Program-made: the position numbers and the translations under genes
Shown: piece by piece, positions 2,572-56,508 of the stretch
How the letters are laid out: every line of letters begins with the position of its first letter
Numbering within the stretch: position 1 is the first letter of the stretch
Assembly (NCBI GenBank): GCA_033439295.1
Contig: JAVTLE010000008.1
Coordinates: 186,001 to 250,000 of the forward strand
Source of the DNA: Deuterostichococcus epilithicus
Taxonomy: Eukaryota; Chlorophyta; Trebouxiophyceae; Prasiolales; Stichococcaceae
Direction: 5' to 3'
DNA length: 64,000 nt
The notes under the pieces: model-generated
The model's input: the letters and a program-made list of their open reading frames with translations, nothing else
Database searches by the model: none
What the model was told of the DNA's origin: nothing

Positions 2572-5500
2572 TCAAATGCAATCCGTAATTGCGAATTCCT
2601 GCTCAGCCTCCGCACTGATGAATGCAGCAGCCTCGCCCACAGCGGCAGCTGCTGCGGCGGCCGCCTTCTTCCGTGCCCTCTTCTGGGCCGCTTTGGACAC
2701 CACCTGGCCGCCGGCTGGCTGCAGCTGCCCCTCCAGGCCCGTCGTGGCCGCCTCCTGCGCGGTGCACGGTCGCTGAACCTGTCACTAACAAATTGCTTGG
2801 GGGCGCCACTTGCATGATACCTGCAGTCGGACACTGTCCCTCTCGGTTCAACAGATGCCGGTGACACATGTGGGTGATGCACGGCAGCAGCTCTCGTGAA
2901 ACAGGCTCACGGGCCTGCAAACATGTAAGAAATCGATCGGCTGTGGGTACCTGCTGTGCCGTCACAGCGCTTGCTGATGCTGCGCCTTCGACGTCTGCCG
3001 CGCACGCTGCTGGCGCCGTGCCATCCCCTCGGTGCAGGCTGCTGTCCCCACCGCTGGCCAGGGCCGCTGACACACCCGCCGCCGCTGGCTCCAGCTGCTG
3101 CCAGGCCTGAGCCGGCAGCCGCTTCCGCAGCGCCGCCTCCATCTGGCACCAGCCTGCCTCGCCGCCTGCGTCCAGCACGGTTCTGGCATCGCTGTGCCCG
3201 GCCACTGCCGCCAGGGTCGCACAGGAATGCGCCAGCGCCTCCTGGGCCAGCACCTGCGGCAGCCGTCTGGCAGCTGCCAGCCACCGCAGGAGCTGGCTGG
3301 CCGCCTCAGCCGCNGNGGCCGCCGCCGCGGCAGCGGGCGGCGAGGTCGGCCGCAGCTCCGGTGCGACGGCCGCCAGGGTGGCCGCGCCGGTCGCCGCCAG
3401 CCGCAGGGCCCGGGCGCTGACCTTCCCGCTCCCGCTGCTGCCGGGTCTGCCGCCGCTCCTCTGGCTGCCGGCGGCCGCCTCGAGGCTGGCGTGCGACACC
3501 GCCGCTGCCACCAGCGCTGCGGTGCTGTCCACCACAGCTGCCGCCACGCCTGCCGGCAGCGGGCCACCCTCCTTGAGGATGTCAGCGGCGGCGCCGCCGG
3601 CGACGGCAAGCGCCTGGCACGCCGCCAGGGTGGCAAAGGCAAAGCTCTTGTCACCCAGCCGCTTGATGTCGCGGAACTGAACCTCGTGCGGCAGCTGCAG
3701 CATCGCCGTGAGGCCCTGTGCAAACCAGATCGGTGAGCTGCACCGAGCTGTGGACACGTGCTTGGGGGTGGGGCCTCCCAGCTGTGTGCCGAAACGTCCC
3801 GGCAGATCACCTGTTGCAGAGGCTCGATAGTTTCCGAGCTGCACGCAGCCGGCATGCCAGCAGCGCCTGGGCAGAGCTTGCATAGGCAAGACAGAGCAGG
3901 TCGGGCCGACCGGCTGCGCCGCCGTCAAGAGCACGAGCCTCAGACCACATTCCAGACCCTACAAACGCACCAGCCGACAGGATCCCGGTGCATCATGCAG
4001 CCGAAAGCCGCGAGCTCCATATGTCCAAAATCCCAGAGCGATAGTTCACCTGCAGCGCGCCGTGATTCACCAGGTGACCCAGGGTTCTGGCCACCGTCGC
4101 GCCGCCGCCGCCGCCGCTGCAAGCGGGCTCCCAGCAGGCGGCGCCGCACAGCTGCAATGCCGTCGATGCCAGCAGGTCGGCTGCCGCCTTGGCCAGCATC
4201 GACGCGTGCGGCAGCAGCAGGCGATTGGCGGGATCTGGCGCATCATCGTCGTCATCGAGCAGCTGCAGTAGGAGGAACTGCGGACTCAGGCGCGATCACA
4301 TGGAGAACCCTGCATGTCCTCTTCCGAGGGCAGGCTCGTGTTCAACAGTCGAGGCCGATTCCTGTGTGTGCTGCAACCTGGCGACAACTTGAGAAACCCC
4401 CTCGGAGATGACGCTCAACGCTGATGTGCAAGGCTGCGACGGCACGGTTCGAGGGCGGCCGGCGCACACCTGGATGCTTGCTTTAGTCTGCAGCATCCGC
4501 ATGCCGGCCTCGCATCGGCACGCTTCCAGCAGGCCGACCAGGATCTGCGCCGGCAGGCGCAGCCGGTCCTCCAGCACGGCATTGTTGCCGCCCGCACCGG
4601 CAGCCGTCGCAGGGTCTTGGTCGCATGTCGTGCTTAGCAGCAGAGCCAGGAGCATGGCCACGGGAGCCGCCGCGCAGGCATGCGCCGGGCCTGCCGGCTT
4701 GTCAGCCCAGCGGCGGCGCAGGTGGCCGGCNAGCCGGCGGCGGAACGCGGCGCGCTCGGCCGCCGACGCCGCCCGCATCGCCGCGTCCAGCAGCTGCCCC
4801 GGGCCCTGCGTCCGCCACAGCACATCTGCGGCGTCCTGCCCTGCAGCCGGCGCCGCCACCGCTGCCGCCAGCCGGTCGATCATCGCCAGCGCACCGGCGG
4901 CGGCGTCTCTCGGCAGCCGGCCGCCGAGGGTATCAAGCACCAGTCCAACGGCCAGCAGCGCCTGCGTCTGGGCAAGATCCAGCGCCACTTCTCCCACGCG
5001 CTCCGGACCCGCCCCCGCCGCCGCCGCCGCCGCCGCCGCCCCGCCGCTGGGCCTCCGCCCGGTCTCATTGTGTGAAAGCCCCGACCACAATGCACCCCCC
5101 AGGCTGCCAGCGACAGGCCGCCGCGCCGCACACCTGCTAGCGTGTCCGCCAGGCGGTCGGCCAGGGCTAGGCCTGCCGACAGCAGCTCGGCGCGGGACTC
5201 CGTCAGCCGCGCCGCCGCGGGGTGTGCTGCAGCGTGCAGCAGCAGCGCTGCGCATACCTGCGCCTGCCGCGCATGCAGCTCTCTGCACGCGAGCGAGTGA
5301 GGCAAGAATTCGGAATTCAGGATGCTCACACTTGCAGCAGCGCTGTCAAGGTGCAGGCAAGGAGCAGCTGCAGCATTCGAGAACGGTGAGGTGAGTGGTC
5401 TCAGAACCTTGCTGTCAAGAAGGCAGCTAGTAGGACACTTGCAGCAAATTGGTGTTTGTAAGCACTTCAGCTGCACGAGCAGGGGATGCAACCGGAAAGG

Positions 5501-6600
5501 CAGCACCTGGCCCCTCGGATCTGCCCTGCAAGCCTGGCTGTGCACGAGGCAAGTCACGGGTTTCAGCAGGTGCAAGCCACACAAGATTGGCCGCACGTCG
5601 TGATCGGCGCGGCCGCTGCCGCCGCCGCCGCGCAGGCGGCGGGCGCCAAGTGGCTGGTGGCGACCAGCCTGGCTGCTTCTGTCTCCTCCCGCGCCAGTTC
5701 GCCTTCCAGCATGGATGCCGGCTGCGCCGGGGGCTTGAGGAGGGCGAGCACGAGCAGCGGCAGGGTGTCGGGTTTTATCAGCGCGGCGGCTTTCAGCACC
5801 GCCGGCCGCCTGCGGCGCGTGTCAACCCGTGGAGAGTGGAGGAGACACTGTCAGATACAGGGCAGAGTCTCAGCTGGAGATCGGCAGCGGCCGCCACTTT
5901 AGGCAGAGAGCCACCAGCATCAAGGGCGAGGGCAAGGGCCCCCCATGTAGGATGGCACCCGAAGCCATAAGTGCGCCTGACACTGCAGAACAGCACGAAA
6001 TCGGACAGCAACCTGCTGGCCACGTGCAGCTGCCATCACACAGCAGGGTTTCTGTCCAGACGGAAAGACAGAAACAGTATCCCCAGGAGGATGAACACGC
6101 AACACCCGCACCGCGCAGCCGCCGCAAAGAGCGCTGTGTGCTCCAGCAGCTCGGCAGCCATGATGCCGTACGCCCTGGGTTCGACATCGTGGTCCACGAG
6201 CAGCGCAAGCGCGGCCAGGGCGGCTGCCGCGAGGTCGACCACCTCGCTCCGCAGCAGCCACAGCGGCAGCGCCAATCTGACCCGCCCGGCTTCGCCGCCA
6301 CCACCCTGTGTCCCGGCAGGGGCGGCGGTTGACCTGCAGGCACAACTACCTGTAGGCATGGCACCTGGAAGTCTGCAGGGTGCCGCACAGGGCTACACAT
6401 GTGGCATAGCAGGGGTCGCACCTGCGCTGGAAAGAGATGCCAGCCGCCAGGAGCTGCTCCGGCCACCGGCTGGCCGGCACAGCAATGAGGTCGAGATGCA
6501 GCCGCGCCTGCAATGTCCTGGCGCCGGCGCTGGCGCCCAGCGCCTCTACGAGTTTGTTGACGTCGCGCGACCTGCGATGTCGCCAGGGTCGGTTGGCCCT
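2572..6600 (-). CDS. Ala-rich helical-repeat protein, paralogue copy A
   Basis: Function not recognised. Exons with matching phase: 2572-2778 (last), 2951-3715, 4050-4262, 4470 to about 5056; further exons near 5133-5290, 5590-5815, 6090-6335 and 6430-6560. The 5' end is not resolved. The product is a long string of Ala/Leu amphipathic helices, ARM/HEAT-like in texture (for example DVNKLVEALGASAGARTLQA near the N-terminus). The C-terminal exon ends in a basic stretch (SKAAQKRARKK) followed by poly-Ala. Segments align with copy B: RPAVLKAAALIKPDTLPLLV versus RPAVLDAVAAIKPDALPLLV, and LPAQAWQQLEPAAAGVSAAL versus LPPKAWQQLEPAAAEVTAAL. N bases at 3314, 3316 and 4731 fall in exons. A nuclear transport-receptor-like solenoid is possible but unproven. 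Coding status is strong, exact model partial. Confidence 0.6.
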
Positions 6601-7138
6601 GCACCTCAGAAGAAACAACCGAAAGGGAAGCGGTGCAAAGAAGGGCGTCACCTGTGGGTTGACTGTGCCATGATGAGCTTTCCTGCAGATCTCTGATCCA
6701 CTTGATGATCAACGCTGAGGACTGTCAGCAAGGTGCAAACAGTCCATGCATTCGCACGACATCTGAAACAACTCCGACTGTCTGTTTGGCTGGTGCAGTT
6801 CGCGCTGACAGAGCGGACACCACAGCAAACAGCGAGCAAAAGCCATATGAATACGCAGCAATCAGCATGCAGAATTGCGAAAGACTGGCACACAGCTGGG
6901 AGGTGTTCTCCACGTGGACACAGGTCACGTGCCTGTATTGCAACGCCCTGCACCCTGACACCGTTCTCTGCCCTCTTGCTGAACAGCAGAGCAATCAATC
7001 AGCTTGCAACGTCCGCTGATCCGTCTCTTTCAAGGTACACGACATGCTGCAGAAACCCCAAGCTCCATGCGCAAGGGGTGCGCACAAGAAACATCTTGCC
7101 GTCGGCGAGCCAGCACAGTTTCGTCGCTGTCCACTCCA

Positions 7139-10100
7139 TCATGAATTGCATCCGAACGCGCCGCTGCCTAGTCCATCCACATCCGCAGGCTCCCCAGCAG
7201 CGCCCTTTGTGCCTCCGGCTGCCTGCCCAGCAGCAGCGGCTGTTTTCTGCGCGCGCTTCAGCGCCGCCCTCGTTGGCCGCTGGCTGCCTGCTGGCAGGTC
7301 CTGCCCCGGTGCCTGCAGCAGCAGCCCTGGTGATCACGACGATGGTCCTGGAACGTCGACACGCCAGTGGGGCACACCTGGTAAGAGAGTGCCGGCTTCC
7401 CAGGAACACCCACTCACTGTCATCGCGCGTGCAGAGACAGGCAAGTGCACCATGTTGAGTCGGTTGTCGATCTGCACCTGCGCTGGGGTGACTGGCCTTG
7501 GCGCGCCGCCGCCGGCAGCCGCCGCTGCAGCGCCCACCGCCGGCTGCCGACTGCGCCCGCCGTCCGCCAGAGCTGCCGTCACTTCCGCTGCCGCCGGCTC
7601 CAGCTGCTGCCAGGCTTTTGGCGGCAGCCGCTGCCGCACCGCCGCCGCCGAGGGCCGCCCATGCGTCTGCGTGCGGTGCCGCTGCCGCCGGTGCTGCGCA
7701 GGCGTCCTCCATCGCCAGCTGAACTACGGCCGCCGGCATCCGCCTGGCCTCTGCCAGCGCCTGCAGCAGCAGGACAGCCGCCTGCACATCTGGGGCCGCC
7801 GCGGGCGACGCCCGCGCCGCCCCCGGCCGCAGCGCTGGGACCACAGCTGCCAGGACGGCCGCCCCGGTTGCAGCCAGCCGGAGAAAAGCCTGCATGCTGA
7901 AGCCGCCCCGGCCGCCGCCGCCGCCGCCGCTGCTGCCTGGGCTGCCGCCCGCCTGCTGCTTGCCTGCGCCGCCGGCCCCTTCGCCCAATCGTGTTGCCGC
8001 CGCCACCACCGCCGCCACGCCCTGCACCACTGCTGCCATCACGTCGGCCCGCAGCAGGTAGCCGTCATCCAGCAAGTCGGCGGCGGCGCCGCCGGCCGCC
8101 GCAAGCGCGTGACACGCCGTCGTGGTGCAGTGAAAGCACTAAAGGCCCTACACGATGAACAGGTATAAAATGTTGCAGCCGGGAAAGAGAAGGGGCACAG
8201 GCGCCACACCAGACCTGCACAGGGGCACAGGACTGCAGCCGCAAGCCGGCGGCACTGCCGCTCAGTGTGCCGCGGCCCATGAGGATGGCCGAAGGCAGCG
8301 CAAGGCGGTCGTGCAACACCCCAGCGGCGCCGCCGGGGCCGCCCGCCGCCGCCGCCGATGCCGTCGGGGCCGGCAGCGGGTCGTGCGAGGTCACAGTGCT
8401 CAGGGTGTGCGCCAGCACCATCGCCGCAGAATTCGCCGTGGCCATGGCGGCTGGCGCCGCGCCGCGCTGCCTGCCCCAGAGCTCACACAGGCCGTCAGCC
8501 AGCTGCTGGCACAGCGATGCGCGGCCGGCGGCTGGCGCCGCTGCGACAGCCAGCTCCAGCAGCTCTTCGTTGCCCCAGATCGACCACAGCGCCTCGACCG
8601 CGTGGGGTGCGGGCAGCAGCGCCGCCGCTGCCACGGCCGCCAGCCGGCCCACCGCCGCCAGCGCTGGCGCGGCGGCGGCGGGCGGCAGCTGCGGGCGGCT
8701 TCTCCCCGGCAGCGAATCACGTGTTACCATCTGGGTGAGGGGCTGGATTTGACGCTGCGCCTTCCTCTTTATCTGTGCATCCAGCGGCGACGCCGCGGCT
8801 GCCGGTGCCATGGCATGCTGGTCCCGACGCGCGCGCGGGATGGCTTGCGGGCTGCGCACAGTGGCCGCCGCACAGGCCCAAGGTACAATCGGATGGCCGC
8901 TCCGATCCAGGGCTTCCAAACTGGCCGCCAGGTGCTCCAACAGCGCAAGGCCACCCAGGACCACATCGCCGCGGCCGTCCGTCAGGTCCGCTGCTGCCGG
9001 GGGATGTGCCGTATGCAGCAGGAGCGCCGCGCATGCATTTGCCTGCTAAAAGTGCACCTCCGCTGCACATACGAAACCACACAGTGACCAGTTCGGCTTG
9101 CTGCTTGGTGAGATGGCGGGGTGAGGCAGAAAGGATGACACATCGGCATGTGACGGGTGCAGCACCTGCGCGTCTACCCAGTGGACGCTGCGCTCGGCCG
9201 GCTCCGGGGACTTTCAGCGAGCTGGCGGCAAGACACAACTGCAGAGTGCCCCATGACAGGGGTCACAATATACACTTTCAAGCCGAATGACACTGCAGCT
9301 GCCGTGTCACAGACGAGAGGTTGCATTATGCAGAACCACATGTGGAGGACCGGCCAGTGTTAATGGCGTCCTGCCTCGTCATGTTCACTGCGGCGGCCAC
9401 CGCCGCATGGCACGCGGCTGGCGCAAGCAGGCGTCGGGCGGCATAGAAAAGCCCCCTTCATCGCCCTCGGAACCATCCGACTGTCGATTGCCGCGTGGTC
9501 CACGACCCTGACGACGGGGTCCAGGCACCCCAGGACGAGCAGCGGCAGCGCGTCAGGCTTTATTGCCGCCACGGCATCGAGCACCGCGGGCCGCCTGCGG
9601 CATGATCGCGGATGTTTAAGAGTCGTGCAAGCTTGACTGCACCGGCGACAAGCGCCAACACCTGATGTCTAGGCGCCGCGCACGGCCCAGGTGCAATTGG
9701 GGCATGTAGGCATGTAGGAGGCACGGCCAAGTGGCGAGAGTGCCCGCAGCTCAGGCCGGCAGTCTCGGTGCCAGCCTGAGCTGCGGCCACTGCCAGCTTG
9801 ATTGTAGTTTGCACTTGATGTGTTAACGCTGTGGTGATGGCATTTGCAGGCCAGGTTCCGAAGGTAGTCGCTGCTAGGAACTCGAGACGCACCCCGAATT
9901 TGAGCGCAATCACATGCGCGTGCGGCACTGCTTGGATCGGACGCTCAAGAGGCAGGAAGTCCTGCTTACCTCAGTGCTGCCGCGACGAGCGACCCATGCG
10001 CCTGTAGAAGGTCCACCGTGACGGCATATATGATGTGGTCGGCGTCGCCGTCGAGCCACAGGGAAAGTGCTGCGAGTGAAGTCGCCGCCAGGTAGACGTC

Positions 10101-10340
10101 GTCGCATTCAAGCAGCCACAGCAGCCATGATGCCGCCTCGGCGGGAATCCTGAAGCGCAGCGATGTCACCTCGAACGGCGTACTTCGACCGCAGGCTGAC
10201 TGCAACGTTTGTTGGAGCGCATCTCGGAGGAAGCACAGCACCGTTGAATAGCCACTGCAGAGCCTCGCGACAGGGAGCATGGCGCCTTTGAACCGACCGC
10301 GCAGCGCCTGGCTACACACCTCCTCGTTGGGGGCTGCAGT
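7139..10340 (-). CDS. Ala-rich helical-repeat protein, paralogue copy B
   Basis: Paralogue of copy A in the same orientation, about 0.5 kb upstream of it. The last exon 7139-7312 (phase 0) encodes LKRAQKTAAAAG and ends GCNS-stop. Other exons lie near 7495-8110, 8190-8760, 8800-9060, 9360-9600 and 9970-10330. Matches to A recur in order: ANACAALLLHTAHPPAAADL versus AQVCAALLLHAAAHPAAARL, LHDRLALPSAILM versus LEDRLRLPAQILV, and LAAAGGAAADLL versus LAVAGGAAADIL. The N-terminal exon has LAATSLAALSLWLDG, equivalent to LAAAALAALALLVDH in A. It is shorter than A and has lost some segments. The order of shared blocks argues for tandem duplication followed by strong divergence. Function unknown; start codon not fixed. 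Confidence 0.6.
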
Positions 10341-16500: not shown

Positions 16501-16530
16501 GCAAGCAGCGCTTGACGACGAGAATGATGC

Positions 16531-24251: not shown

Positions 24252-24931
24252 TCTGCGCTGCAGATGCGGTGTGGCTGCAGAGCTAAAACCTGCACAGCTG
24301 GCTTCTACGTTGTGAGCATGCTGTCAGCTTCCAGCTACGTCTGTGCATTGGTGCTCAATTCTGCACTCTGACACGTGATTAATTGCTTTCCAGCAGTGCT
24401 GAGCAATGCTGCGTCCGACTGCCACAGGAAGTGATGAGAGAAACACCTACGAGCGAGCCGCCATCACGCGGTGGCTTGCACGAACAGGCGGTCGCCCCTC
24501 ACCAACCAGTCGCTGAGCGACACGAGGCTGGTTCCAGACCATGCCCTGAGATCTCTTGCTGCAACGGTGTGTGAAGCCGCTGCAGTCGATGCGCTCGACC
24601 AACTTGACGTCTGACTCAGTCTGCACGTCCTGCCATATATCATAGTGTCTGGCGGGATGAAGGGCGATGAAGGGCGTGTTGGCAATGGCTTTGGTTTGCA
24701 GCGAGTTGATCAGCGGTGTACAACTGACCTGAACCAAAGTGGGTTTACTATAAACTCCCAGACACAGCCAACGTGCCCACACAGTTAAAAGCCCACGTGA
24801 GTACTCGTGTACCACTGTCAGCCGAGCCTGGGCGCAACGCCAGACTCGCAGCGCCTCTGCCAGGCCAAATGCAGCCGCCATCTGTAAACCGGCTGCCTCG
24901 AGGCTGCAGTGGCAGGGACGCCGCCGTGCTG
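24252..24931. other. Spacer between convergent copies C and D
   Basis: Contains a minus-strand open stretch (about 24447-24760) with protein-like text (PFIALHPARHYDIWQDVQ). It lies 3' of the copy D stop. No start, splice partner or family could be assigned, so it is not called as a gene. Confidence 0.35.
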
Positions 24932-27900
24932 TCATGTAACCGCAGGGCCACCAGTCTTCCTTCGAGCGCGCTTCCCTGCCGCCTTGTCGGCCGGCTTGCC
25001 CCTGTGGCCTTCCTCCTCCTGCATGGCAGGACGTTAAGACCCTAGAACCAGAAACTTGATGCATGCCTACTTCCGTCAAAGAGGCCACGTATCATGCACA
25101 GCAGAAGCAGTCCTGCAGGCCCTGTGGCATGCCTTGCACTGCGGCCTCAGCAGCCGACGCTCGAGTCGGTGAGTGAGAACAGGCGATCGGATGCAGGCGC
25201 GTCTGGCTAGGGATGGCCTGCGTGCAGCAGCGCCAGCAGAGCGTGCGCGGCGCATGCAGCTGTGTGAGCTGCGCTTCAGGCAGTCATGCCTGAAGCACTA
25301 CGCTGCGAGCGGCCGTGCGAGGCGTGCGGGGAGCTCATCAGTATACAGGTTCCAGGAGGTCGCCCCACCAGGAGCTCCTGCATGGCGGCGTCTGCGGCGG
25401 CCTGCTTCAGCGCTAGCGCCGCGCTGCCGTCCAGCGCAGACTTCACCTGCGGCCATGCGACTCCCTTGCTCACAGGGCGTGAGCCTGCGGCATGGTCCGC
25501 TGCAGCGTGCCGGTTGTGGCGCTGCAGGGGTTGCAGCGGTGTACCTGCACCGACACAGCGTGGACGCAGATGCAGGCCCGGTCAAGACGCGGGCACATGC
25601 TGGAGCTGGGATCAGTGTAGCGGCACCAGTGCTCGGGGTCCATGAACCCTCAGCCCTAGGGCGCGACGGAAACAAATTTACACGCGCCTGCTGCAGCCCG
25701 GGCGCGAATTCGCGCTCGAGGCCGGCGGCCCGCGCAGCCCGCCGCACCGCTGCCGCCACGTCGTGCCACTTCACCGCTGCCCGCGGGCCCAGCATCGCGT
25801 CGCGGGCAGCCGCATCAGCTGCGATGAGCTGCGCCGCCAGCGCATTGCAGGCCGCGTCGAACGCTGGCAGCGCCGCTGCGCTGAGCGGCAAGGCTGCTAA
25901 GGCGAGCACCGCCTCGGCCAGTCGCCGGCCCGCCTGCAAGAGTGTGTGCCAAGAAGAAATCACTGGTCGAGATTTGCTTCTCTGGTCCTGGACCCGATCC
26001 GAGTCCCGCTCTAGCTGCGGAGCAGGTCGGCAAAGCCCCGCAGGCACCAGGGACACTGCTGCAACCAAGATCTCACATCAAGCGTGGGACTTGACTGCAA
26101 AGGCAAGGTCTGCAGCACTTGACAGGCCAGTCCACCTCAGCGCGCGCCACTAGGCCGGCAGCCTGCGCGCCGCTGGCGGCGACGCCGCCGATGACCTCCG
26201 CGCCCAGCTGGATGCAGGCCAGCTGCGCGCTGGNATCGTGTGCCCCGGCGCGGCCGCCTTGCTGGCCCGCCGCAGGTGCCGGCACCGCCGCCGCCGCTGC
26301 GGCCGCCCCGCCGCCGCCGCANCCGCAATGCGCTGCTCCACGCCGCTGAAGGCGAGCACGGCCGGCCCGAAGGCAGACGCCGCCAGCAGCAGCCGCTCCG
26401 ACGGCCGGCTGGCGCGGGGCAGCAGCTGCGTGACGGCGGCCGCGAGCGCGTGCACCGCGGCCCGGTCACCGGCCAGCACCGCCGCAGCTCCGTCGCCGGT
26501 TGCGGCGAGCCGCCGGGCAGCGGCCTCCAGCATGCTGGGCGGACACCTGATATAACGATCAATGGTCAAGAGAAGGGCCCTGGTTCAGGCTCCAGCAAGC
26601 TAGTGAGCATGCCGGGCTTCCATTGGCTTGCCGGCTGGACCTGCATCGGTGACGCTGTGACGCGACTTCAAGAACGTTCTCTGGCGGCGGGCGAGCAGGC
26701 CGCTGCTCGAAGTGGCCCTGTCCAGCAACGTTGGTGGTCATGCAAGGAGGCAGTGAAATGCGCAGGCCGCACTTGAGGCTCCAGGGGACGCCGCCGAAGA
26801 GCCACGCCGTGACAAGCGCCTCCAGGGCAGCCGGGCCGTCTGCGTCGCCCAGCGCCACGCGGCGGCGGNCGGTGTCCGCAACGGCCGCCGCCAGCGCGTC
26901 TGCCGTCTGCAGCACCTGCCCTGCCAGCTTCCCCGAGGGGGGGCCGAGCGGCGAGGCCCGCTGCTGCTGCTGCTGCTGCAGCTGCTGCTGCTGCTGCCCA
27001 GCCCACGCCGCCGCCGCGCCGCCGCCGGCCTCGACAAGCCAGGCGCCCACGGCGGCGGCGGCGCGGCCGCAGCGCGGCGGCCCAGCCGTCGCCTCCCCCC
27101 GCGCCCGGGGCGGCCTGCAGCAGCGGCTGCGCCGCGCAGGCCAGCTGCGCGACCGCCAACGCGACGGCCAGGTGTGGCAGCCGGCAGCCGGGCTCCCCNC
27201 CGCCGCCTGGCTGGGCCGGCGCTGGCGGCGCGCCCGGCATGCTCCGGTGGCTGAGCGTCGCCGCGATGCTGAGCGACTGCGCCAGGACGCCGAGCAAGGC
27301 GTGCGCATGGGCACTGTCAACGGGCGAGCTGCCGCTGGCCGCCGCCGCCGCCGCCGCCACCGCGGGGCAGGCGGCGCGCAGGCTGTCGACTATGCCCGCA
27401 TCGAAGACGCCACGGGCCGCCTGCGAGGCCGCCTGCCCCGCCAGCGCCAGTACCCGAGCCGCGAGCTGCGGCGCCATGCCGCTTTTGCACTTGCATGCCG
27501 CCGCAAGCGCCACCCACAGGCCGCAGGCGGCGCCGTTGAACGGTGCGGCCTGCAGCCTGACGTTCTGCTGCCCCGCGATCGACGCGGCTGCCGCCTGCGC
27601 GACGCGGTCGACGAAGCCGAGCAGCGACACGAGCTGCTCCTGCGCCGCAGCGCTGTGCCGCCACTGGCCTGCTGATAGGGCCGTCGCCGCCTGCTGGCCG
27701 TTTGCAGCTGCTGCGGCGACTGCTGGCTGCGGCGCGGCGGCCGCTGCCAGCAGGTTCGCCAGCCCGGCGGTGCGGATAAGGTGCTCATTGTACGGCGCCC
27801 ACCGCTGGCTGGCCGTGCCCGCCCACCTGCGCAGCGCGAAAACATGCTGGCTGGTGCGACCATGTGGAGCGGCGACACGTGCCAAGGACGAAGCTTTGCT

Positions 27901-28818
27901 CTATTGTCCAGGCGGGAAATGATCTCACATCAGTCGGAATGTGTTGTGTGACGGATGGCCAGCACTGCATACCTTGCAGGTGCAAGCGCCAGAAGAAAGT
28001 TTGACTGTATGCAGCAGCTCAGCCCCTCGTGGCGGTGCCGAAAAGGCAGAGCAGCGATTCGCTGCCCACCTCAGGGTGCGCTCCGTGTGCGGCGCAAGCA
28101 GCCTGCACACCGGACGGCCGGCCGCGGCGTCATACGCTGCAGCCGACAGGACCAGCCTGCCGACGGCGCCCGGCCGCTGCGTGTCCGCATCGTCGGCCAC
28201 GCCCGACCGCGCCAGGGCGTCGGCCAGGTGCTGCGCCAGGCCGTGCACGATCTGCGCGCGCTGGGGAGCTCCCACACTCATGAAGCCCTGCGGTCAAATA
28301 GCACGATGCATCCCTGTGCACCTCGGGCCGCGGGCTGGACTGTGTTGTGCGAATGGGCGTGGCCGTGGGCGTGTGTATGGGGGTGCACAGAATGCCACTC
28401 AACGTGCTGCGCTGCAGGCGCAGACTTGTTTGGCGTACCTCCTCGGTGTGGTCGAACCAGGTGCTCAGCGCCGCCAGCTTGATGGCTGCTAGCAGGTCCG
28501 ACGTGGATTCCAGGCTGAGCAATATGCTGCGCAGCTTGAACTCCCACTCCTCCTCCGAAAATTCTTGCAAGTCCTCGGGCACCTCCCTGCAGCCAACGGC
28601 AACAGCGAATCAAGGAATTTGACGCCATGTGCTGATTTTTGGTCCGATCTGCTGCTGTCGCCTTCTGATAGCACTCACCATTGATGCTCGCCGTGATGAT
28701 AGTAAGTGCTCCAGGACATGTATTGGCACTCGGGGCGAGTCTGGATGAAGTCGAGCAGGTCTTCATCGAGGTGCTCAAACTCCCGGCCGAGCGCACTCCT
28801 TCTGCCGCCGAGCCTCAT
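24932..28818 (-). CDS. Ala-rich helical-repeat protein, paralogue copy D
   Basis: Start at the ATG ending at 28818 (MRLGGRRSALGREF). Exon 1 is 28679-28818 and exon 2 is 28439-28586; they join in phase as HQW|EVPEDLQEFSEEEWEF, then SDLLAAIKLAALSTWFDH, equivalent to the LAALSLWLDG block of B. Middle exons cover about 27925-28280 (RAQIVHGLAQHLADALARSG), 26690-27870 (LLGFVDRVAQAAAASIAGQQ) and 25300-26560, all Ala-rich helices. The last exon 24932-25018 reads LQEEEGHRGKPADKAAGKRA then RRKTGGPAVT-stop, sharing the basic KAA-x-KRARRK tail with A. N bases at 26234, 26322, 26869 and 27199 are in coding sequence. No catalytic motif seen; function unknown. Confidence 0.6.
26958..26997 (+). repeat. CTG/CAG trinucleotide run
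   Basis: Interrupted (CTG)n on the plus strand. On minus it gives poly-Gln (QQQQQLQQQQQQ) inside copy D. Confidence 0.8.
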
Positions 28819-29307: not shown

Positions 29308-30509
29308 GAAATCCTGGTAAGGACTTGCACAGATGTCACATTTGCCATTTTCACATGATAAGAATGCAGACACGCCGCAAATGCAGAAATACGTCTTGGT
29401 CGTGGCTCTCTGAGCCTGCGATGCAATCCCGTTGAAAGGCAAAGGGGTCCGTCTGACGACGCGTGCACCCCTACTGGAATTGCACCATGCGTTGCCTGTG
29501 CGGTGCGTGGTCTCCGTCATTGAGGACGAGTTGTGGCGCCAGCCGGCGCAGGCACAATGGCGGCAGTGGCGGCAGACCAGCAGCAGCAACAGGCAGCAGG
29601 CGCAGGCACAGGAGCGGCAGCAGTGACGGCCGCAACAGGGGCGGTGCCTGCTGGCGGTAGTGGACGTTTGGTGCATGCAAAGTTGGCGGGTTGGAACGGG
29701 GGAGTTGGCTGACGCCTGCCATAATGGGCTACGGGCCCAGGCTGGCGGCCCGCCGTATCCTAGACGGGCAGCGGACTGCGCGGACGGGGCCACCGCAGCT
29801 GGCCCTGCAGGTGCAGCGGGCGGTCACGTTGCGCTTCTGGAGTCGGTGTCCCACAGATATCGGAGGTTAAGCGGCCTTCGTTGCATGGGTGGTCGAGGTC
29901 CGCCGCCACCCAGGGCCCCTTCATCGCAATGTGCCGATTGATGCGTGTCCTGTGACCGCTCCTGGCGGGCTGGCATCACCGGCGATGCTCCGGCACAGAG
30001 CTGCAGAGGCCTGCAGCAGAACACTGGCGGCTGCAGGTGCACCCGATACTACTGCAGCTGACTTGGCGCCTGATGCAGTAAAGGCCATGCCGGCCCGCAA
30101 CGCGCTGTTCATTGCAAGCTTAACGTTACCAGCTACCAGCGAGAGCTGGTAGCTGGTAGCTGGCAGTGTCCCCCCATTACTGCAGAAGGCCGAAGATGGC
30201 CGACAACGCTTGTGTGACGTTTCCTGAGTCAGGCGTTCGTTTGCGTGTGCTGCATCAGTCTGCTGGATCCATGTTCCACAAAATTCCACAGACCTTTCAG
30301 TACTTGCTGGTAGATTCTCAAAAGCCTGGATTGTTCATCGCAATCCTCCGCAGCCCGGCAGTGTGTGCATCAGGCACGGATGCCTCCCTTCATTCTTGGT
30401 ACCGCACAACAAGCACTAGGCGGAATGTTGCCGCGCGGAGCACTGCGGTCAGCACCTCGAGCAGTGCTCCCATCGCTCTGTCTGCTGCATCCTGCCGTGC
30501 TGCAGCCTC
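29308..30509. other. Region between tRNA-Pro and copy E, uncertain coding
   Basis: Both strands have overlapping open frames. On minus, 29921-30200 reads LVAGNVKLAMNSALRAGMAF and further Ala-rich helical sequence that could be 3' exons of copy E. Plus frames are equally long, so no call is made. A perfect hairpin sits at 30127-30158. Confidence 0.3.
30127..30158. repeat. Perfect inverted repeat (14-bp stem, 4-base loop)
   Basis: The left arm taccagctaccagc and right arm gctggtagctggta are exact reverse complements around a gaga tetraloop. Each arm also contains a repeated agct/accag unit. Confidence 0.9.
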
Positions 30510-31880
30510 CTACATGCTGACCACTGTGCTAGGACTGTGCAGCTGCGCATCGCTCCCTGGAGAGGGCTGAGCGCTGCCAGCCGAGTGGCTGTCCTGCAGA
30601 GCCCTGTCAGCGCTGGCACCCGCCGCAGCAGGAAGGCAGGCAGCCGCCACGGCAGCATTCAAAGGTTGCATGGCACTGGCGGACTGTGCAGGGTCGAGCT
30701 GACCAGACCTGCATATGGCCTGCGCAATGCTGCTGCGCAGTTCCGCCCAGTCGCAGCGGCCGCCTTGTCGCAGCACTGCTGCCGCCTCAGGCAAGCTGCA
30801 GAGCATCGTAAGTGCCACGCAAGCGCCGCTAAAGGCTTCTGCAGCCGAGGGCGCCTCGCCCATTGCAGCTGCCAGCCAGCGAGCCAGATCATAGCCGCCG
30901 CCAGCGCCTCGACACATGCGGCAATGTCCGGCGCCGGCCTGCTGCCGCCCTGCTGCCGCAGCAGGTCCTGCTCGCACATCCGAGTCCGCGCCCTCACGCT
31001 GCGTGACATTCAAAACATGTAGTGGGGATCCGGCCGAGGCATGGCTAATGGCGCGCGGTGCGAATGACAAAGCAGCCGCAGCCGCCCGCCCTGGTTTGGT
31101 GACCTGCCGCCAGCAATTGCAGATAAATGGGCTTGAGTATGGCTGGATGAGAAAGATCAAATCAAGAAACGTGATGATGGCTCAATGGTCTGCCAGCGAA
31201 GACGGAAGCAGCAGAGCGAGAATATAGCACGTGTCGAGTGCAGTGGATGTCAACTAGATCAGTATTTCAGACGGCAGGCACAAGGGAAACAGGTAGGGAT
31301 TACTCTTGTGCTGGATTGAAATGATCAGGCGCACCAGGAAAGCGGGGACCTCGATCCTGCTCACGCCGCTGCCAACAAGCGCCGCCGGAAACCATGCAAA
31401 TTTTACAGTGCCAAAGTCGCAAACTCCCGGCCATTGACGACCATGTCGCCTGCAGTGAGCCGCTGCCGCAGCCCAGCAATTCTCGGCATCTGCAGCTCGC
31501 ATGGGTCCCAGGTCACCTCGAGAGTCAGCGTCAGCGCCCAGCGGGCTGCCGCACGCCAAAGCCGGGCGAGCGCGACTGCTGCTGTCCCGGGGCATGGCAT
31601 GTCCAGCGAGACCAGCAAAGTTACGCAGGCCGCCATTGCCGCAGGCTCGGCTGCCTCAACCGCAGCGGCGAGGCCGGGCCGCAGGTTCAGCACGGCCAGG
31701 AGCGCCCTGCGAATCTGCATGCAGAACGACTGCGCTTTCAACTGCGAGCGGATGGACAAGTTGCACAAGATGCTTGCATTTCTATTCAATAATTTGAACC
31801 GGGAGGTCCGCCGAGTGATTGACTTTGCCTCAAACCTCCTCAGCCCCTCATCAGTCGATGGCAGCTCGAGTGCGGGCTGA
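30510..31880 (-). CDS. Ala-rich helical-repeat protein, paralogue copy E
   Basis: Minus-strand segments of about 31403-31880 (ELPSTDEGLRRFEAKSITRR, then IRRALLAVLNLRPGLAAAVE) and 30510 to about 30960. The latter reads LARWLAAAMGEAPSAAEAFS, then VLRQGGRCDWAELRSSIAQA. It aligns with LLRWLAAARRLPQVLAQEAL and VLDAGGEAGWCQMEAALRKR of copy A, and RRALLAVLNLRP sits where A has RRPAVLKAAALIKP. Shorter than A and D. The stop used is the TAG at 30510-30512; further 3' exons may exist to about 29920. Function unknown. Confidence 0.5.
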
Positions 31881-32363
31881 GCTATGTGTACATACTTTCT
31901 GGACCCTGGAAGGCACCGGCATGGAAACCGCCTGACACTGAACGCTCACCCCTTTGAGCACTTGATGACCTGGTCATCGGCCATGCTGATAGCCTCGCTG
32001 TGTGATCAGGGCTGTTTGGCTGCACTACTGCCAACTGTGCTGCAGAATTGCTGAGAGATCAACGCAAACCACGACTCGCTTCGTCTCGCAACACATTCCT
32101 GACAGGTGCCTCGAATGGATAAACAACAGGACGGCGTCATCGTTGCTCTGTTTCGACATCCAATATGATCATGCAGAACCGCACATCGGGGTTTCCTGTG
32201 TACAAAGATCTCAGATCCTCGACGGGACCTCGTACGGGCAGCATTTGCCTTGGAAGGTCCTGGTCCGAAGTTATCAGAGTTGTGCCTGCGCATAAGTGAC
32301 CTTGCAGTACCTGAATTGTGATTCTCCGGATCGAGCACCAGTGCTCAAGCTGCCTGAAGGACA
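31881..32363. promoter_or_regulatory. Spacer between divergent copy E and Ubl gene
   Basis: About 480 bases separating two divergently oriented coding regions. No gene recognised; likely contains both upstream regions. Confidence 0.35.
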
Positions 32364-33301
32364 ATGGTCCGGCGGCGCCCCGGCAGAGGCAGCACCACCC
32401 TCGGACGGCCGCTCAAGCGGCGCCTTGGCGGGGACGGCGCCAGCGTAGCAGCCGCAGCCGGTGGCGGTGGCGGCTGACATTGCTGCGACGACGGCGGAAA
32501 CTGCCGCTGCGCCCCTGGCGGCGCCTGCTGTGGCGGAGGAGCCGCCGCTGGCGAAGCGGCAGCGCAGTGCACAAAGTGCTGGGCTTGGGCCGCAGCACCC
32601 GCCTGCACCGCAACAGAGCAGCGGCGGGTCTGGCGCCAGTACCAACTCAGCCAGGAGCAGGTTGGAGAAGGATACACTCAACCCTGTTCTATGCGGTTGA
32701 TGTCTACAGATGCTGCACGTCTGTTCATCTCGTTGCATGCACCATGCCAAGCACATAGAGCGCGGTATCACGGCGTGCTATGCGAGTCGCAAAACCGTGT
32801 GAATTAGTAGTTATTTCGGTGTTTCGATGCGGCCATGTGCTGCAGTTCGGCCAGATCGTCGCGGCGCACCCCGTCGCCGACGGCAGCATCATCGTGGGTG
32901 TCCACGACCATGACAGGAACCTGGCAGCCTTCAAGGCGCAGCCGCACACTCAGGTGTTAAAGGTGGGCCACATCTTTCAGCTTCTATGCGGGAGGTGGGC
33001 CGCATCTATTCAGCCTTGTTCAGCTGAGCCAGGGGGCATGTGCCATAGTGTGCCTGTTATTTCGTGTCCTTGGCTGTGCATCGGTGCATGGTGTTGTCAA
33101 CACACACCTGCGGCATGTGCGCAGGTCTGCGGCTGGTACAGCCGCGTGAGCGGCATGGACCCCGGAGAGTTCTTTTTCCTGTGGAACTGCCGGCGTGCAG
33201 GCGGCCATGACACCCTTGCCGGGCTGCGTGTCAAGCACGGCGATATCCTACAATGTAGTTTTACCCAGGTGGGGGACTGGCCGCCGCCAAGCGACAAGTA
33301 G
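32364..33301 (+). CDS. Second ubiquitin/SUMO-fold protein with basic N-terminal region
   Basis: Two exons are clear and in phase: 32846-32962 (FGQIVAAHPVADGSIIVGVH) and 33125-33301 (GMDPGEFFFLWNCRRAGGHD, then TLAGLRVKHGDILQC), ending PPPSDK-stop. The pattern of a hydrophobic strand, a helix and an FF-L-W/F-x-G/C-R turn, followed by T-L-x-x-L-x-V-x-x-GD-I, is that of SUMO or Rad60-SLD beta-grasp domains. There is no di-glycine end. A probable first exon starts at 32364 (MVRRRPGRGSTTLGRPLKRR) and continues in another frame as TTAETAAAPLAAPAVAEEPP and LAKRQRSAQS. The frame changes within the GGTGGC run near 32455-32473, either a sequence error or a tiny intron. Role inferred only from fold. Confidence 0.5.
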
Positions 33302-34215
33302 AGCCGCCACGTGGCGAGAGCAGCCATACTGGCGAACTGGCGACTGGAGGAAGTGTACAGTTTGTGAAAAGGCTTGATTGCTGCACGAGTTACAAGTGGG
33401 TAGGCTTTCGAGTTGTTTGAAGCTTTGCTTTGGAACACCAATCAGTGCGCCGCCGTGCCAAAGCGCATCAAGGGCATTGAAATATGTGCAACGGCAAAGC
33501 ATGACCCAGCAATGGGTTACTGGGCTTCGCTGAAATGTCATCACGCTTTGTCCCAGCCCAACAACTATTGCATGTCCGCGCAAAGCAGGCATAGCAGGGA
33601 GTAGCAACACGTCATGCTGACGGATATAACCACGTGCATACCAACACTCACACAGGACACAACGCCACTGCAGATCGATCGTTCGACTGATTTAACAGAC
33701 AGGCAGCATTTGCGACCTCAGCACACTTTTGCTTCCACCTGCTGGCCGCTCGCCTGCATGCGCTGCCAGACACCACAATCTTACAAGCACCGTTGATCAG
33801 ACATCAGTCCTCCGGCACAGGCCCGAACAGCACTTGCTGACAGAAGCTGTGTTTCTGCATGCCCTCCAGTACTCGTGGGCGTCGAAACTGATACAATCAA
33901 GCGATCTCGAGGTTGAACCATTTGGCTCCAGGAAAATGGTGGACTTGTGGGGGCCTTTGACTCGTGATTTGAAGCAGCAGGATGTGCAGCACGGACTTGG
34001 CGAATGATCCTGTGCTGCTATGAACGTAGCACGCTGACTAGCGACATGGACACAGAAACGTGAGAGGGGACCCTGTCTGTTCTTGTCAACTTCGGCTGTG
34101 GTCAATCCATCCTGCGGTGCCCGCGGTGCCCGCCTTGTCACTTGCGCCCGTCATGCACGACCGTTGGCCCTTCCCCTGTAGCATGGCAAGGTGCTGACAC
34201 TTGTGTCTTCCGCAG
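33302..34215. other. Spacer before copy F; upstream exons unresolved
   Basis: About 0.9 kb, moderately AT-rich. Short plus frames such as 33729-34007 (SSDLEVEPFGSRKMVDLWG) exist, but no splice-consistent link to copy F was found. The first exon of copy F probably lies here. Confidence 0.3.
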
Positions 34216-37200
34216 GTTTTTTGTGGCAGCATATTTTGCGGGATGTGCTGCACTGTTCACCCTGTATATGGCATTTTCGGCCTGGTTGAAACGCTGGATG
34301 GGGAAACACGTCGAGGCTAGATTGCCTGCCTGGCGGCAGATCCTGAAAGCCGAGCAGCAGCACACCGACAGGTGGGCACACATTCACATCTCTCCCGCTT
34401 GCTGGCGCTTTGGGAGACTGTTGGGCCCGTGGGAACGGCCAGTGAACCCAGGATGCTCCTCGCAGCTGCAAGACCTCGAATGAGCTGCATGGTTCGACAG
34501 GACTCCGCACGCCAAGCAAGAGGCTCAAGTGAAATGCCCACTCTCCTTAGCCTGGGGGTGCCACGCCGCAGCAGGGAGACGTGCACCGTCCGGCTGGCCG
34601 AGAGGCTGGGCCGGCAGACTGAGCTGACGGCGGCGGCGGACACCCTGGCGGCGCTGTCGTGGATCGTCGAGCAGACGCCGCTCACAGAGGCTACAGCAAA
34701 AGTTCTGCGGCGGTACTCCGAGGTTCTGGCCCGCACCCTTGGGCGCTACCGCTTTGCGACGGCGGCGGCGGCGGCGCGGAAGCACTCGGCTCACGTGATG
34801 GTTGCAGCGCTGCTGGCAGTGACTCGTGGGCAGACGCTGCCGCAGCGGCGGCCGACGCTGGCGGCGGCGCTGCCCTACGCATCAGGTGTCACCGCCTGGG
34901 CGGTGGACGATCCGTCACATGTCCCGTCGCTGCGCTTGTTGCAGCTGGGCACCGCTGAGCTGCTGCGGCTGGCGGGCGAGGTGGCAGCAGGTCGCCACGC
35001 ATTTTATGAGGACATCATTCGCGCGGCGCCGCTGCCGGCAGTCGCGCTAGCGGCGGCGCTCTCGGCTGTGCCGGCGTATGCGGAGGCGGCCCTGGAGTAT
35101 GCCGGCAGCGTCACCCGCGCCGGCTGCATGGAAGATCGCCGCACATACATGGTCCTGCAGGAGGAAGCACTGCAGGTGTGTCGCCCCTGCAGATACACGG
35201 AAGACGCTGCTTGCTTGACTGTGCTTTCAGTCTCCTTTCATAGAACATCTCCTTTCATAGAACAACAAGCTATGGCGCGGGCGTCTGGCATCCCGCCGAG
35301 ATGCTGCACTGCGCTGGACAAGCAGTATTGGCCAATCAGACTCGCTGCCTGGTGGTGTGTGGTGCCCTTCATGCACAAATCTCTTGGAAGACAGAGCTGC
35401 GGTTCTGGTTCTCGATGTGGACCAGGCATTGCAGTGCAGCAGGCAGAAAGTCGCATAGGTCCTGCAGCCAGCCGCCTGAAAATTTCTGTTCCTCGACCCC
35501 TGCGCAGGCGCTGCTGCGCAGCCTGGATGGCGCGGGCCGAACATGGCAGAAGCTAGGGGAGCAGACGCTGACGCCGCGGCAGGCGGACCATGCGGGCCGG
35601 GCGCTGACGCTGCTGGCGCAGCCGTTCACGGCCCGGATGCTGCGCATAAGCGTGAGCTTCGCGCAGATCGCAGCGCACAGCGCCTGGCTGCCCGCCGCAG
35701 CACTGCCGGCGCTGCGGCCGGCAGCGGCGGACCGCTGTGCTGCGGCAGTGGCAGACGCGGTGGAAACCGTGCTGCGGGCGTCGGCGCCCGGCGCGGAAGA
35801 CAGGGGCATGCAGCTCGGCATGCTGGCGGCGCTGGCTCAGGTCTTTGCGTCCTGTTGCCGGCACGTGCCGCCGGCGGCGGCGACAAGGCCAGCGGCAGTG
35901 ACGAAGTCAGCGGCGGCGAGTGCAGCGGCACAGCCGGCACAACCTGCGGCATGGCCCGGCTTCCAGCTGCCACAGCGGCTGCATCCGGCGCGGGCGCTGG
36001 GAAGCGTCCTGTCAGTCTGTCGCATCCGCGCCTCCCAGCCGGCAAAGGCGACAGCAATGGTGCCTGCCCCGCAGCTCAGCTTCAGCCTGGGACGGCGACT
36101 GCAGCTGGCTCGTGCGCTGCTGCGGCACGGCAGCACATTCGACAGCTCTAGTGCTGGCCGGGAACCGGCGCCCCTGGCTTTGCCAGGCTGCGGCGGCGGC
36201 GGCGGCGGTGACGGGCAGCAGACGCTGGCGCAGCAGGCAGGCTGCCTGGTCGACCACGCGACGCAGGCGCTGGCGGCGACGGCGCTCTCTGCCCTCGGCA
36301 GCGGCACCTCGTGCAGCTTCAGCGGCGGCGGCTCTGGCGGCAGCGGTGGCTCTTGTGGCAGCGGCGGCTCGAAAAGCCAGCGGCAGCCGCCGGCTGAGTA
36401 CCTGGCGGAAGTCGGCGCGCTGGCGGACCTCACTGCGGCTCTGCTGTGCATCAGCGAGCGGCAGGAAGCGGGACGCAGCCTGCCTGGCGGCTTCTGGGCG
36501 GCCTACAATGCCCTGGCAGGTGGTTGTTACGAAGGCTGACCCTCGGAAGTTGCGCCACTTCCCCAGCATGTGGCGCAGGCATTGCCTGTGCCTCGCGTAC
36601 ACGATGCGTTCATAGCATCTTGCAGCGCAGTCAATGGTCCTGCAGTCCTGATGCTCATTGCCTCTTTTAAAGCGCCAAACCTCATGAGCCTGACGGGTCA
36701 AACTTGTCTCTTGCGCAGCTTATTCTAATCATGTTCGATGCAATCAATGCAGCGGCGGCGGGTTGCATGGAGGCTGCCGTCAGCTCGCTGCAGCTGCCGT
36801 CGCCGGCGCTGGCGTCCGCGGTCGCAGCGGCGTGCGCCGCCACAGTGAGAGCTGGCTGCCGCGCGCTGGCGGCGCCGAAGCCTGGCAGCAGTGGCGGCGG
36901 CAGCAAATCCGCAGCGGCAGCGGCTGCCCGCCCCCAGACTGGCAGCCGCGAGTGCCGCATGGTGCTGACCGCCTGCGAGATCATGGCGGGCTTCGCGGAC
37001 AGTTTCCGCATGCAGAAGGCAGCTGCCAGCCAGGGCGGCGCGAAAGCGATGGCGGAGGCGCTCGCCGTCGCCGCCCAGGTCGGATTCGACACTGCACTAG
37101 GCAGCTGCTCCTTGTCTAGGCACATGGCGTTCCTCCCTCGATTTGAGAACAGCAGGTGGTCTGCCAGCAGCCTGCTCTCAGTCATGACCCTCTGCACTGT

Positions 37201-39263
37201 TATACATGTGGCTGCAGTTGGATGCCGCAACAGCGGCTGATGAGCATTCTGAGCATTCTCCCGTGCAATGCGGCGTGGACTGCGATGGCATGCACTCTTG
37301 GCGCTGCCGCTCCAAGAGGCACAGTCAGCGACGCAGTCCGACTTCGTTTGGGCAACTAGAGCTTGTAGATTATCAAACTTTTCGGTCTGACACACATTCA
37401 GAGGGCGTGCAGTCGCAATTTGGTGGCACTGGCGGCTGTGCAGCCCAACTCGCATCTGGGGTCCTGCGAAGGCAAGAGTCTCCTTGTGTCTGCAGTCCGA
37501 CATGGATCCGGAGGGGATGCAGTCGCTGCTGTCGGAGGCGCTGCCGGCACTTGCGCAGCTGCTGGGCGAGGACGCCGCTGGCCGCGCGGCGCTTGCGCCT
37601 TGCGGCCATATGCCGTGGGAGCCCCTGGCGCAGCGCCTGGCACGGCGCCTGCCGGCAGGCGGGCAGGAGCTGGCTCTGCTGGACGCCGTTGGCGACGCAG
37701 CGGCGGCGCGGCCGGCCGTGGATAGGTGGGCGGCGGCAGCCGAGGTCGCCGCGGCAGAGCTGCTGAAGGTTGGCAATGACACCTTCCTTTCCGCCCAAGC
37801 CCAGCAATGCTGCTCCCGGCAGGAATGCTTGGTCGCAAGCCGCTGCAGGCTCTGGCAGGGCTGGCCGGCACCGACACGGTGGCAAGGAGCCTGTTGACGC
37901 CACCATGTGCCTGCATTTCGCTCAGCCAGGTGGAATCGCTTGCGTCAAGATCAGCTGGCAGCTCGATGACTCTGCAGACAGTTTGAAGACGGGATCATGT
38001 TCGCCGGCTTAGTGCCTCGCAACTGACCTGGACTTTCAGCAGCTGACCGCTGCCCTGCTCTGCTACAGGAGCCACGCAGGCCCCGACCGGGACCCTGACC
38101 CTGCAGTGGTATCGAATGAACTTGCCCATGTCCATGAGCAGGAGGAAGAGGCAGCGGCAGAGACGGAGGGCGCCGCTTTGACGTCGAGCCTGCGCCAGCT
38201 GCGGGGCGACAAGAAGCCCACAGCCGGCGCGGAGGCGCCGCCTGCCAGGCCGCAGTCGCCGGCATCAGTATCCAAAGCGGCTGACAAGGAGCCTACGGCC
38301 GGCGCAGAGGCGCCGCCTGCCGTGCCGCAGCCGCCGGCGCCAGCCGCCGAAGCAGCTGACAAGGAGCCTGCGGCCGGCGCGGAGCTGCCGCCTGCCAGGC
38401 CGCAGCCGGCGGCATCACCTTCCGAAGCGGCTGACACAAAGCCTGCGGCCGGTGTGGAGACGCCGCCTGCCAGGCCACAGCCGCCGGCGTCAGCGTCCGG
38501 AGCCATTGACAAGAAGCCCGCCGCCGGCGCAGTGGCGCCGCCTGCTATGCCGCGGCACCGCCCTGACGGCCGAAGCGGCTGTCAAGGAGCCTGCGGCCGG
38601 CGCAGAGGCGCCGCCCGCCGCGCCCCGGGCGCCACCGCTGACTACCGAGGTGGCTGAGCCAGCCGAGAGGGCGCTCGCGGCTCGTCCGGAGGCGCCGCCT
38701 CCCCTTGGCACCGAACTGCCGCTCACTGGGCCGCAGGCACGTGCGGCGGCGGGTGAGGCGGCTGACGCGAGTGTTGCTCGCTCGGCGCTGCCGCCTGCTG
38801 AGTCACAGCTCGTTACACCACAGTCCGCCGCGTCGCATCCCGCCGCGTCCTAAATGTCGAGGCAGCCACTGCTCAGTCGGCGCCGGCGCTAGTGCCCGCA
38901 GCGCCAGCGGCTGCAGCGCCGGCGGCCGCCGCACCCCAGCCATCAGAGGTGGAGGTGGTCGACGCAGCCAACGCTCAGCCGCCGCCACCTGTCGCCAGAC
39001 AGGTTCGTGTCTGCACTTGCGATGCAGGCGCTTATGATTTCAATTTGAGATGCGAGTTTGCTAACTCTGCATGGCTGGGGAGCTAGTTGCATTCTCTCTC
39101 TATTTAGGAAGCTCCCAAGGACCTTGGGCCTTACGGTTCTGGGGTGTCAAATACTTCGCACACTGCAGCAGTCGCGGCTGATGGCAACTCTGCCCGGTGC
39201 TGCACAGGAGGCAAGCGCGGAAAAGGCGACAGTGCGGCACCCCAGGACAGCAGCAGTTGCTGA
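34216..39263 (+). CDS. Ala-rich helical-repeat protein, paralogue copy F, with repetitive tail
   Basis: Exons in phase: 34216-34371, 34575-35175, 35508-36519, 36753-37078, 37496-37768, 38040 to about 38850, and 39108-39263 (last). The 5' end is missing. It begins with a hydrophobic stretch (FFVAAYFAGCAALFTLYMAF), then TAAADTLAALSWIVEQTPL, matching the LAAL block of A, B and D. Long Ala/Leu helices follow, then HMPWEPLAQRLARRLPAG, resembling W-x-x-x-[EA]AL-x-x-RL-P in A. The tail from 38200 is a Pro/Ala/Glu-rich set of 75-base repeats that changes frame near 38555 and again near 38830. The last exon reads EAPKDLGPYGSGVSNTSHTA and ends SSSC-stop. The C-terminal architecture differs from the basic tails of A and D. 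Function unknown. Confidence 0.55.
38200..38640 (+). repeat. 75-base tandem coding repeat
   Basis: Five in-frame 25-residue units of the form KEPTAGAEAPPAVPQPPAPA + EAAD (positions 38213-38587), followed by a sixth unit that continues in a different frame (VKEPAAGAEAPPAAPRAPP). Unit-to-unit divergence is moderate. It encodes a disordered Pro/Ala/Glu tail of copy F. Confidence 0.85.

Positions 39264-56473: not shown

Positions 56474-56508
<35 letters not shown>

Follow-up and report, generated by a model that had tools for sequence, protein, structure and literature searches.

What are the Ala-rich helical proteins encoded in a 64,000-nucleotide stretch of the Deuterostichococcus epilithicus genome (positions 186,001 to 250,000 of contig JAVTLE010000008.1, here C7; the whole stretch is called the window and its positions are counted from its first base), and to what family do they belong? 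A first-pass annotation had described six diverged multi-exon genes (A to F) of an unrecognised family at 2572-39263, and had proposed a lineage-specific tandem expansion of a solenoid protein, perhaps ARM/HEAT-like and possibly nuclear. Comparison with the rest of the assembly (46.8 Mb in 21 contigs) indicates that the cluster is probably part of a fast-evolving, lineage-specific U-box (E3 ligase-like) family of this alga that undergoes birth-and-death turnover, the turnover being suggested by clustering, divergence and broken copies. On the evidence of their sequences, A and B share descent with the U-box genes; D and F are probable members by their intron site and pairwise scores; the membership of E is marginal; and C appears to be linked to the family through a U-box relic.

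U-boxes were mapped genome-wide because two U-box-like pieces turned up in the gene models of the region around the window. The Pfam U-box (PF04564) has 43 exon-level matches in the genome, 41 of them above the cut-off, including one at 40.7 kb of the window (G); the light-harvesting protein family PF00504 has 28 matches at E<=1e-5, in keeping with a photosynthetic eukaryote, and the splice signals learned by the gene finder together with the high G+C point to a green alga. Eleven U-box loci were read (U1, U2, U3, U13, U14, two on C11, those at C7:170k and C7:176k, C and G), and the full layout is found at four: U1 (C7:675.5k), U2 (C7:687.4k), U13 (C13:331k) and U14 (C14:1045k), of which the U14 5' end and the U13 start are cut or uncertain. 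In this layout, a long Ala-rich helical N-terminus is followed by a W-block and the site AADAAMxxLL, then by a phase-0 intron, EEE, a linker rich in Lys/Arg and, at the C-terminus, the U-box; common to all four are the W-block (LxxGGxxxW...LP...LxPAxxxVxxAL, with Trp replaced by Phe in U1), an AAxAAxxxLL site and the Lys/Arg-rich linker before the U-box. U3 (C7:683.8k) has the linker and U-box in an irregular 382-aa model, the two U-box genes on C11 show another layout, and no long helical part is seen at C7:170k, C7:176k or G. When four proteins were compared with Pfam, U1, U2 and U13 passed the U-box cut-off and g11, a gene in the flank of the window, had no match. A genome search finds 19 places besides U13 that resemble the U13 tail (E<1e-6). 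The stretch C7:675000-692700 contains a row of three such U-box genes on the minus strand, one of them irregular, and between them a plus-strand gene that resembles a PfkB sugar kinase. Two further family members, g10 and g11 (C7:141326-146650), lie about 39-45 kb to the left of the window; g11 is a 687-aa model, colinear with A, in which no U-box was found.

A and B, through which the cluster is joined to these genes, comprise the following features.

2572..6333, minus strand: A, a 774-aa Ala-rich helical model of nine exons (two tiny and doubtful), without a U-box
3035..3301, minus strand: W-block region of A, RWLAAA...LDAGGEAGW...LPAQAWQQLEPAAAGVSAAL, with five helices predicted
2572..2754, minus strand: last exon of A, with the Lys/Arg-rich linker SKAAQKRARKKAA and a stop at 2572
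7168..10140, minus strand: B, a degenerate-looking paralogue of A, the gene model alone covering 7168-9603
about 9966-10140, minus strand: N-terminal block of B, an open reading frame (ORF) outside the gene model

A and B are, by sequence, true paralogues. They share ordered blocks, as first proposed (best blastp E values 2e-8, 3e-8 and 5e-6 with the low-complexity filter off; with the filter on, blastp gave just one antisense pair, 1e-4), and the peptide blocks originally quoted do sit in their frames: RPAVL at 5794-5808 and 9579-9593 on the minus strand, KPDxLPLL in A and B, the N-terminal-type blocks LAALSLW in B and AALSTWFD in D, and RWLAA common to A (3272-3286) and E (30867-30881). A direct genome search with A (E<=0.01) matches only A and B, and A is colinear with g11 at 36% identity over 618 codons. 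The N-terminus of A may start further upstream. Its Lys/Arg linker is present, but neither the LLEEE site nor a U-box is seen in it, and with a profile built from U-boxes of this genome none is detected behind its last exon. B has no counterpart of the A exon at 4050-4277 and changes frame ahead of the W-block; an exon loss and a frame change thus seem to have occurred in it, which would make it degenerate unless the assembly errs.

Membership in the U-box family was tested with one profile built from the four U-box genes U1, U2, U13 and U14 and another from six members outside the window, including the two flank genes. Over 5,366 ORFs, the four-gene profile detects g11 (E 7e-13), B (6e-4) and A (0.006), with the best reversed control at 0.065, and a profile of the four U-box genes plus g11 detects A at 2.4e-5 and g10 at 0.0018, with the best reversed control at 0.048. 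Each protein was also compared with 100 local shuffles of itself, using three profiles (two of which exclude A and B) without the HMMER composition correction. With the six-member profile, the W-block of A scores 39.0 bits against a shuffle maximum of 25.2 and that of B 30.4 against 23.1, and with each of the three profiles none of the 100 shuffles reaches either score, so that A and B exceed shuffled Ala-rich sequence. For the others the outcome is divided: D (28.1 against a maximum of 23.4) and E (15.4 against 14.3) also stand above all 100 shuffles with the six-member profile, the shuffles reaching their scores numbering 37, 0 and 1 for D and 1, 0 and 0 for E with the three profiles; F and C fare less well (below). 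For three control proteins, 16, 23 and 11 of 100 shuffles reach the score with the six-member profile.

Pairwise Smith-Waterman comparison with 80 local shuffles, applied to nine family candidates (36 pairs, E left out) and to 42 other pairs, gives z>3 for 14 of the 36 family pairs (in two of which one or two shuffles reached the real score) versus 1 of the 42 others; among the family pairs are A-B (z 34.6), A-g11 (13.4), F-U14 (5.3), A-F (5.2), D-F (4.1), D-g11 (3.6) and C-U1 (3.2). This test is not independent of the profile test, because the sequences compared contain the W-block. The gene structure offers a different kind of character: D, F, g11, U1, U2 and U13 each have a phase-0 intron that follows LL or LM, with no more than one residue between, and is itself followed by EEE or EED. 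U14 has its intron site before QRIG, in U3 just EEE is seen behind a phase-0 intron, and the LL|EEE intron is not seen in A, B or C. Of the 464 introns predicted in 57 genes of the region, three fit this pattern in its loose form, and they belong to g11, D and F.

That the similarity might be merely compositional is suggested by the Ala content of these models (28% in A/B, 27% in D and 26% in F versus a region median of 14.5%), by the many Smith-Waterman pairs within shuffle range, and by the absence of A/B, D and F from the 16 best rows when the HMMER composition correction is applied to whole proteins. We nevertheless consider such an explanation very improbable, since A and B outscore all their local shuffles with all three profiles, as D does with the six-member profile, the position and phase of the intron common to D and F are independent of composition, and for A-B composition is already excluded by the z of 34.6.

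The remaining Ala-rich candidates on the right-hand side of the cluster are as follows.

24818..28818, minus strand: D, a 732-aa Ala-rich helical model
25369..25933, minus strand: W-block and intron site of D (AAADAAMQELL, phase-0 intron, EEE)
30456..30905, minus strand: E relic, with a W-block at 30606-30905, an in-frame TAG at 30510-30512 and AADRAMGALLE at 30456-30509
33936..38853, plus strand: F, a 937-aa Ala-rich helical model with a Pro/Ala-rich tail and no U-box
37496..37768, plus strand: W-block exon of F, ending AEVAAAELLK, then a phase-0 intron and EEE

The in-frame TAG of E falls between its W-block and AADRAM. Two further loci carry traces of the U-box itself.

21502..24286, plus strand: C, a weak Ala-rich helical model (coding log-odds 93, splice 81)
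24428..24566, plus strand: broken U-box behind C, U-box profile pieces at E 1.6e-4 and 1.8e-3 (best reversed control 0.44)
40345..40883, minus strand: G, a U-box in three exons (CPITQ, DLMDDPVTAADGFNYEHSALA, RWLMAHSTSPMTG...) in open frame

The relic behind C starts at the usual splice site of the family (EVMRE), is without the DPV..DG stretch and contains a frame change. G scores 23.0 bits with the Pfam U-box at C7:226677 and E 8e-7 and 2e-6 with a profile built from five U-boxes of this genome; no long helical part is modelled upstream of it. Scanned over the region in six frames, the same own-U-box profile matches at -15.5 kb, at -9.9 kb (split between frames), at the relic of C (24.4-24.6 kb) and at G (40.3-40.9 kb), and the other rows listed, with E values of 0.3 or worse, are at the level of the controls (best reversed 0.44). 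Of the two U-box exons at C7:170436-170624 and C7:176060-176263 in the flank, neither has a long helical part modelled, and the second is split between frames. We class A, B, D, E and F as related to U-box genes but not as U-box proteins themselves.

How many of these loci are genes was assessed with a splice-aware gene-finding hidden Markov model (HMM) self-trained on the 264 kb region around the window (converging on donor G[T/C]G[C/A]G and acceptor GCAG), a second training run leaving the cluster out; support was measured as total coding log-odds and compared with the best gene on reversed sequence. Trained on the full region, the model predicts A and B joined (2572-9603, minus), C (21502-24286, plus), D (24818-28818, minus) and F (33936-38853, plus). 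Trained without the cluster, it still recovers A/B (total coding log-odds 362), D (266) and F (218), whereas the best genes on the reversed sequence of the cluster and of a 60 kb flank reach 130 and 132; the values for C and E are 93 and 17. Length and splicing, not codon quality, make A, D and F fair gene models; C is an uncertain gene and E is not a gene. Thus the six multi-exon genes originally described reduce to about three fair, long, Ala-rich models (A on the minus strand, in the model joined to B; D, minus; F, plus), one weak model (C) and relics, with B looking degenerate and E interrupted by a stop.

Several observations weigh against membership of the cluster in the U-box family, against the soundness of its gene models or against the apparent loss of U-boxes. 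The scores of A and B in the ORF scan are, by their size alone, not proof, because other ORFs score about as well (one at -23.7 kb with E 7e-4 using the four-gene profile, and three at 0.012-0.016 when g11 is added). D is not above its shuffles with the four-gene profile (37 of 100); F (19.5 bits with the six-member profile) is matched over its LLEEE end only, and 1, 2 and 2 of 100 shuffles reach it with the three profiles; the W-block of C is not above its shuffles with any of them (92, 39 and 36 of 100). With composition correction on, the whole spliced proteins A/B, D and F lie outside the 16 best rows of both outside profiles, shuffled controls under this correction reaching 13 bits. Some family pairs are flat in the Smith-Waterman comparison (A-D z 1.3, F-g11 1.0, U1-U14 0.0) and one control pair reaches z 4.1. 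The LL|EEE pattern was written after the cases were seen, and in its stricter form it fits F only. Genome searches with C, D and F gave no paralogue. No U-box was found near A, B, D, E or F with the own-U-box profile and none has a Pfam U-box match, an absence based on six-frame scanning and not on transcripts. Per codon, the log-odds come to 0.32 for A/B, 0.25 for F and 0.29 for C, short of the 0.40-0.49 seen in sounder flank genes and not superior to reversed sequence (0.27-0.49), D having 0.39; because these per-codon scores are low, support for the A/B, F and C models rests on length and splice sites. Finally, the window contains nine single ambiguous bases (3314, 3316, 4731, 20081, 22468, 26234, 26322, 26869 and 27199), eight of which lie inside A, C and D; this suggests that the consensus is poor where G+C and Ala content are highest, and assembly error in these three is therefore possible.

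The low per-codon scores also favour the idea that the cluster is purely a graveyard, in which A, D and F too are non-functional remnants of U-box genes held open by GC-rich composition and chance. The broken appearance of B, E and the U-box of C points the same way, as does the ratio of nonsynonymous to synonymous substitution rates (dN/dS, NG86 method), which is 0.71 for both A-B (379 codons) and A-g11 (618 codons) versus 0.19 and 0.46 in two other paralogue pairs of the region, although G+C bias can inflate such values. The pattern fits weak constraint or fast change. We judge a pure graveyard unlikely: A, D and F retain hundreds of open codons and splice sites, their total log-odds (218-362) exceed those of reversed sequence (at most 132), and the dN/dS ratios are below 1.

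A nuclear solenoid family of ARM/HEAT type, resembling importins or exportins and unrelated to U-box proteins, would account for the Ala/Leu-rich composition, for the helices predicted in the F exon and the W-block, and for the Lys/Arg-rich C-terminus of A. The W-block of A, aligned with those of E, D and F, is modelled by AF2 as five helices (pLDDT 78.7, pTM 0.61) and the F exon alone as all-helical, though unreliably (pLDDT 42), so a solenoid fold is plausible as a prediction. Searches for a likeness to ARM/HEAT proteins gave nothing significant: there is no Pfam ARM, HEAT or importin match in the six models at E<1 nor in four relatives, no significant fold match for the W-block model, and neither F nor g11 has a sequence relative in the PDB; none of the 25 Arm matches listed for the genome is on C7, although a diverged repeat could escape detection. 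With the tail modules, moreover, tying A, B and D to U-box genes, such an origin appears very unlikely. A nuclear location is possible, its sole basis being a Lys/Arg-rich stretch in A and its relatives. The family, recorded at first as unrecognised, has no Pfam repeat match and can be linked with U-box genes elsewhere in this genome; the proposed lineage-specific tandem expansion stands for the A/B tandem and for a diverged helical cluster at this locus, but g10 and g11 lie outside the window and U-box members are found on other contigs.

An intact member of the U-box family has an Ala-rich alpha-helical N-terminus of roughly 400-700 aa, the W-block, LL|EEE with its phase-0 intron, the Lys/Arg linker and a C-terminal U-box, and would most likely be an E3 ubiquitin ligase, as known U-box proteins suggest: the helical part may bind a client protein while the U-box would recruit an E2 loaded with ubiquitin. 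A, D and F, if made, might then only bind clients without tagging them, acting as a decoy, an inhibitor or a partner of an active copy, or they may be on the way out; B, E and the U-box of C look broken, and G retains little besides its U-box. A more ambitious proposal, that these genes form a large, fast-diverging repertoire of helical client-recognition proteins, many with a C-terminal U-box and some free, serving as an immune-like or self-recognition system in a unicellular alga, strikes us as unlikely; if true, viral or symbiont proteins could be among the targets, members without a U-box would be natural decoys or regulators, and the turnover would be like that of plant F-box or NLR clusters.

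Elsewhere in the window, a low molecular weight phosphotyrosine phosphatase gene (18477-20414, plus) lies between B and C, the gene at 50550-54484 (minus) matches MIP (aquaporin-like) narrowly above the cut-off, and an amino acid permease gene is at 56112-60693 (plus). The eIF2A gene at 61607-64000 (plus; Pfam E 1.4e-57) encodes a C-terminal NAAKRARKKA similar to the U-box family's linker, a likeness that is probably coincidental.

No description of this U-box layout was found in the literature searched. In an excerpt from a survey of Chlamydomonas, the U-box genes number 30, with a single tandem pair and without an Arm-PUB subfamily (PMC4378952), and an excerpt from a Trebouxia comparison mentions a single U-box orthogroup, in which the changes amount to one gene (PMC11523091). 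The algal family resembles the PUB-ARM proteins (SPL11, PUB12/13, SAUL1) in combining a U-box with a long helical region in a multi-gene family with presumed client binding by the helices, but differs in its C-terminal U-box, its N-terminal helical part and the lack of an ARM profile match. In PUB-ARM proteins the order is the reverse, the U-box standing ahead of the helical part. UFD2/UBE4 (E4) has a C-terminal U-box behind a long helical core, which is the arrangement seen here, but no Ufd2 core is among the Pfam families listed for U1, U2 and U13; elsewhere UFD2/UBE4 is a small, conserved family. CHIP/STUB1 likewise places a helical client-binding part at its N-terminus and a U-box at its C-terminus, although no TPR is among the matches listed for the algal proteins and their N-terminus is much longer. 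A, D and F, which retain the putative binding part without the U-box, are like decoy E3 ligases without an E2-binding domain; the examples found in the literature searched are engineered (PMC6483598), whereas the loss of the U-box here would be natural and the decoy activity is putative. Genes first seen as anonymous and Ala-rich thus probably belong to a family that can be defined and whose biochemistry can be tested. The findings point to an algal U-box family with its helical part N-terminal to the U-box, accompanied by relatives that lack one, and such clusters, like the F-box or NLR arrays of plants, let one ask what single-celled algae recognise and destroy.

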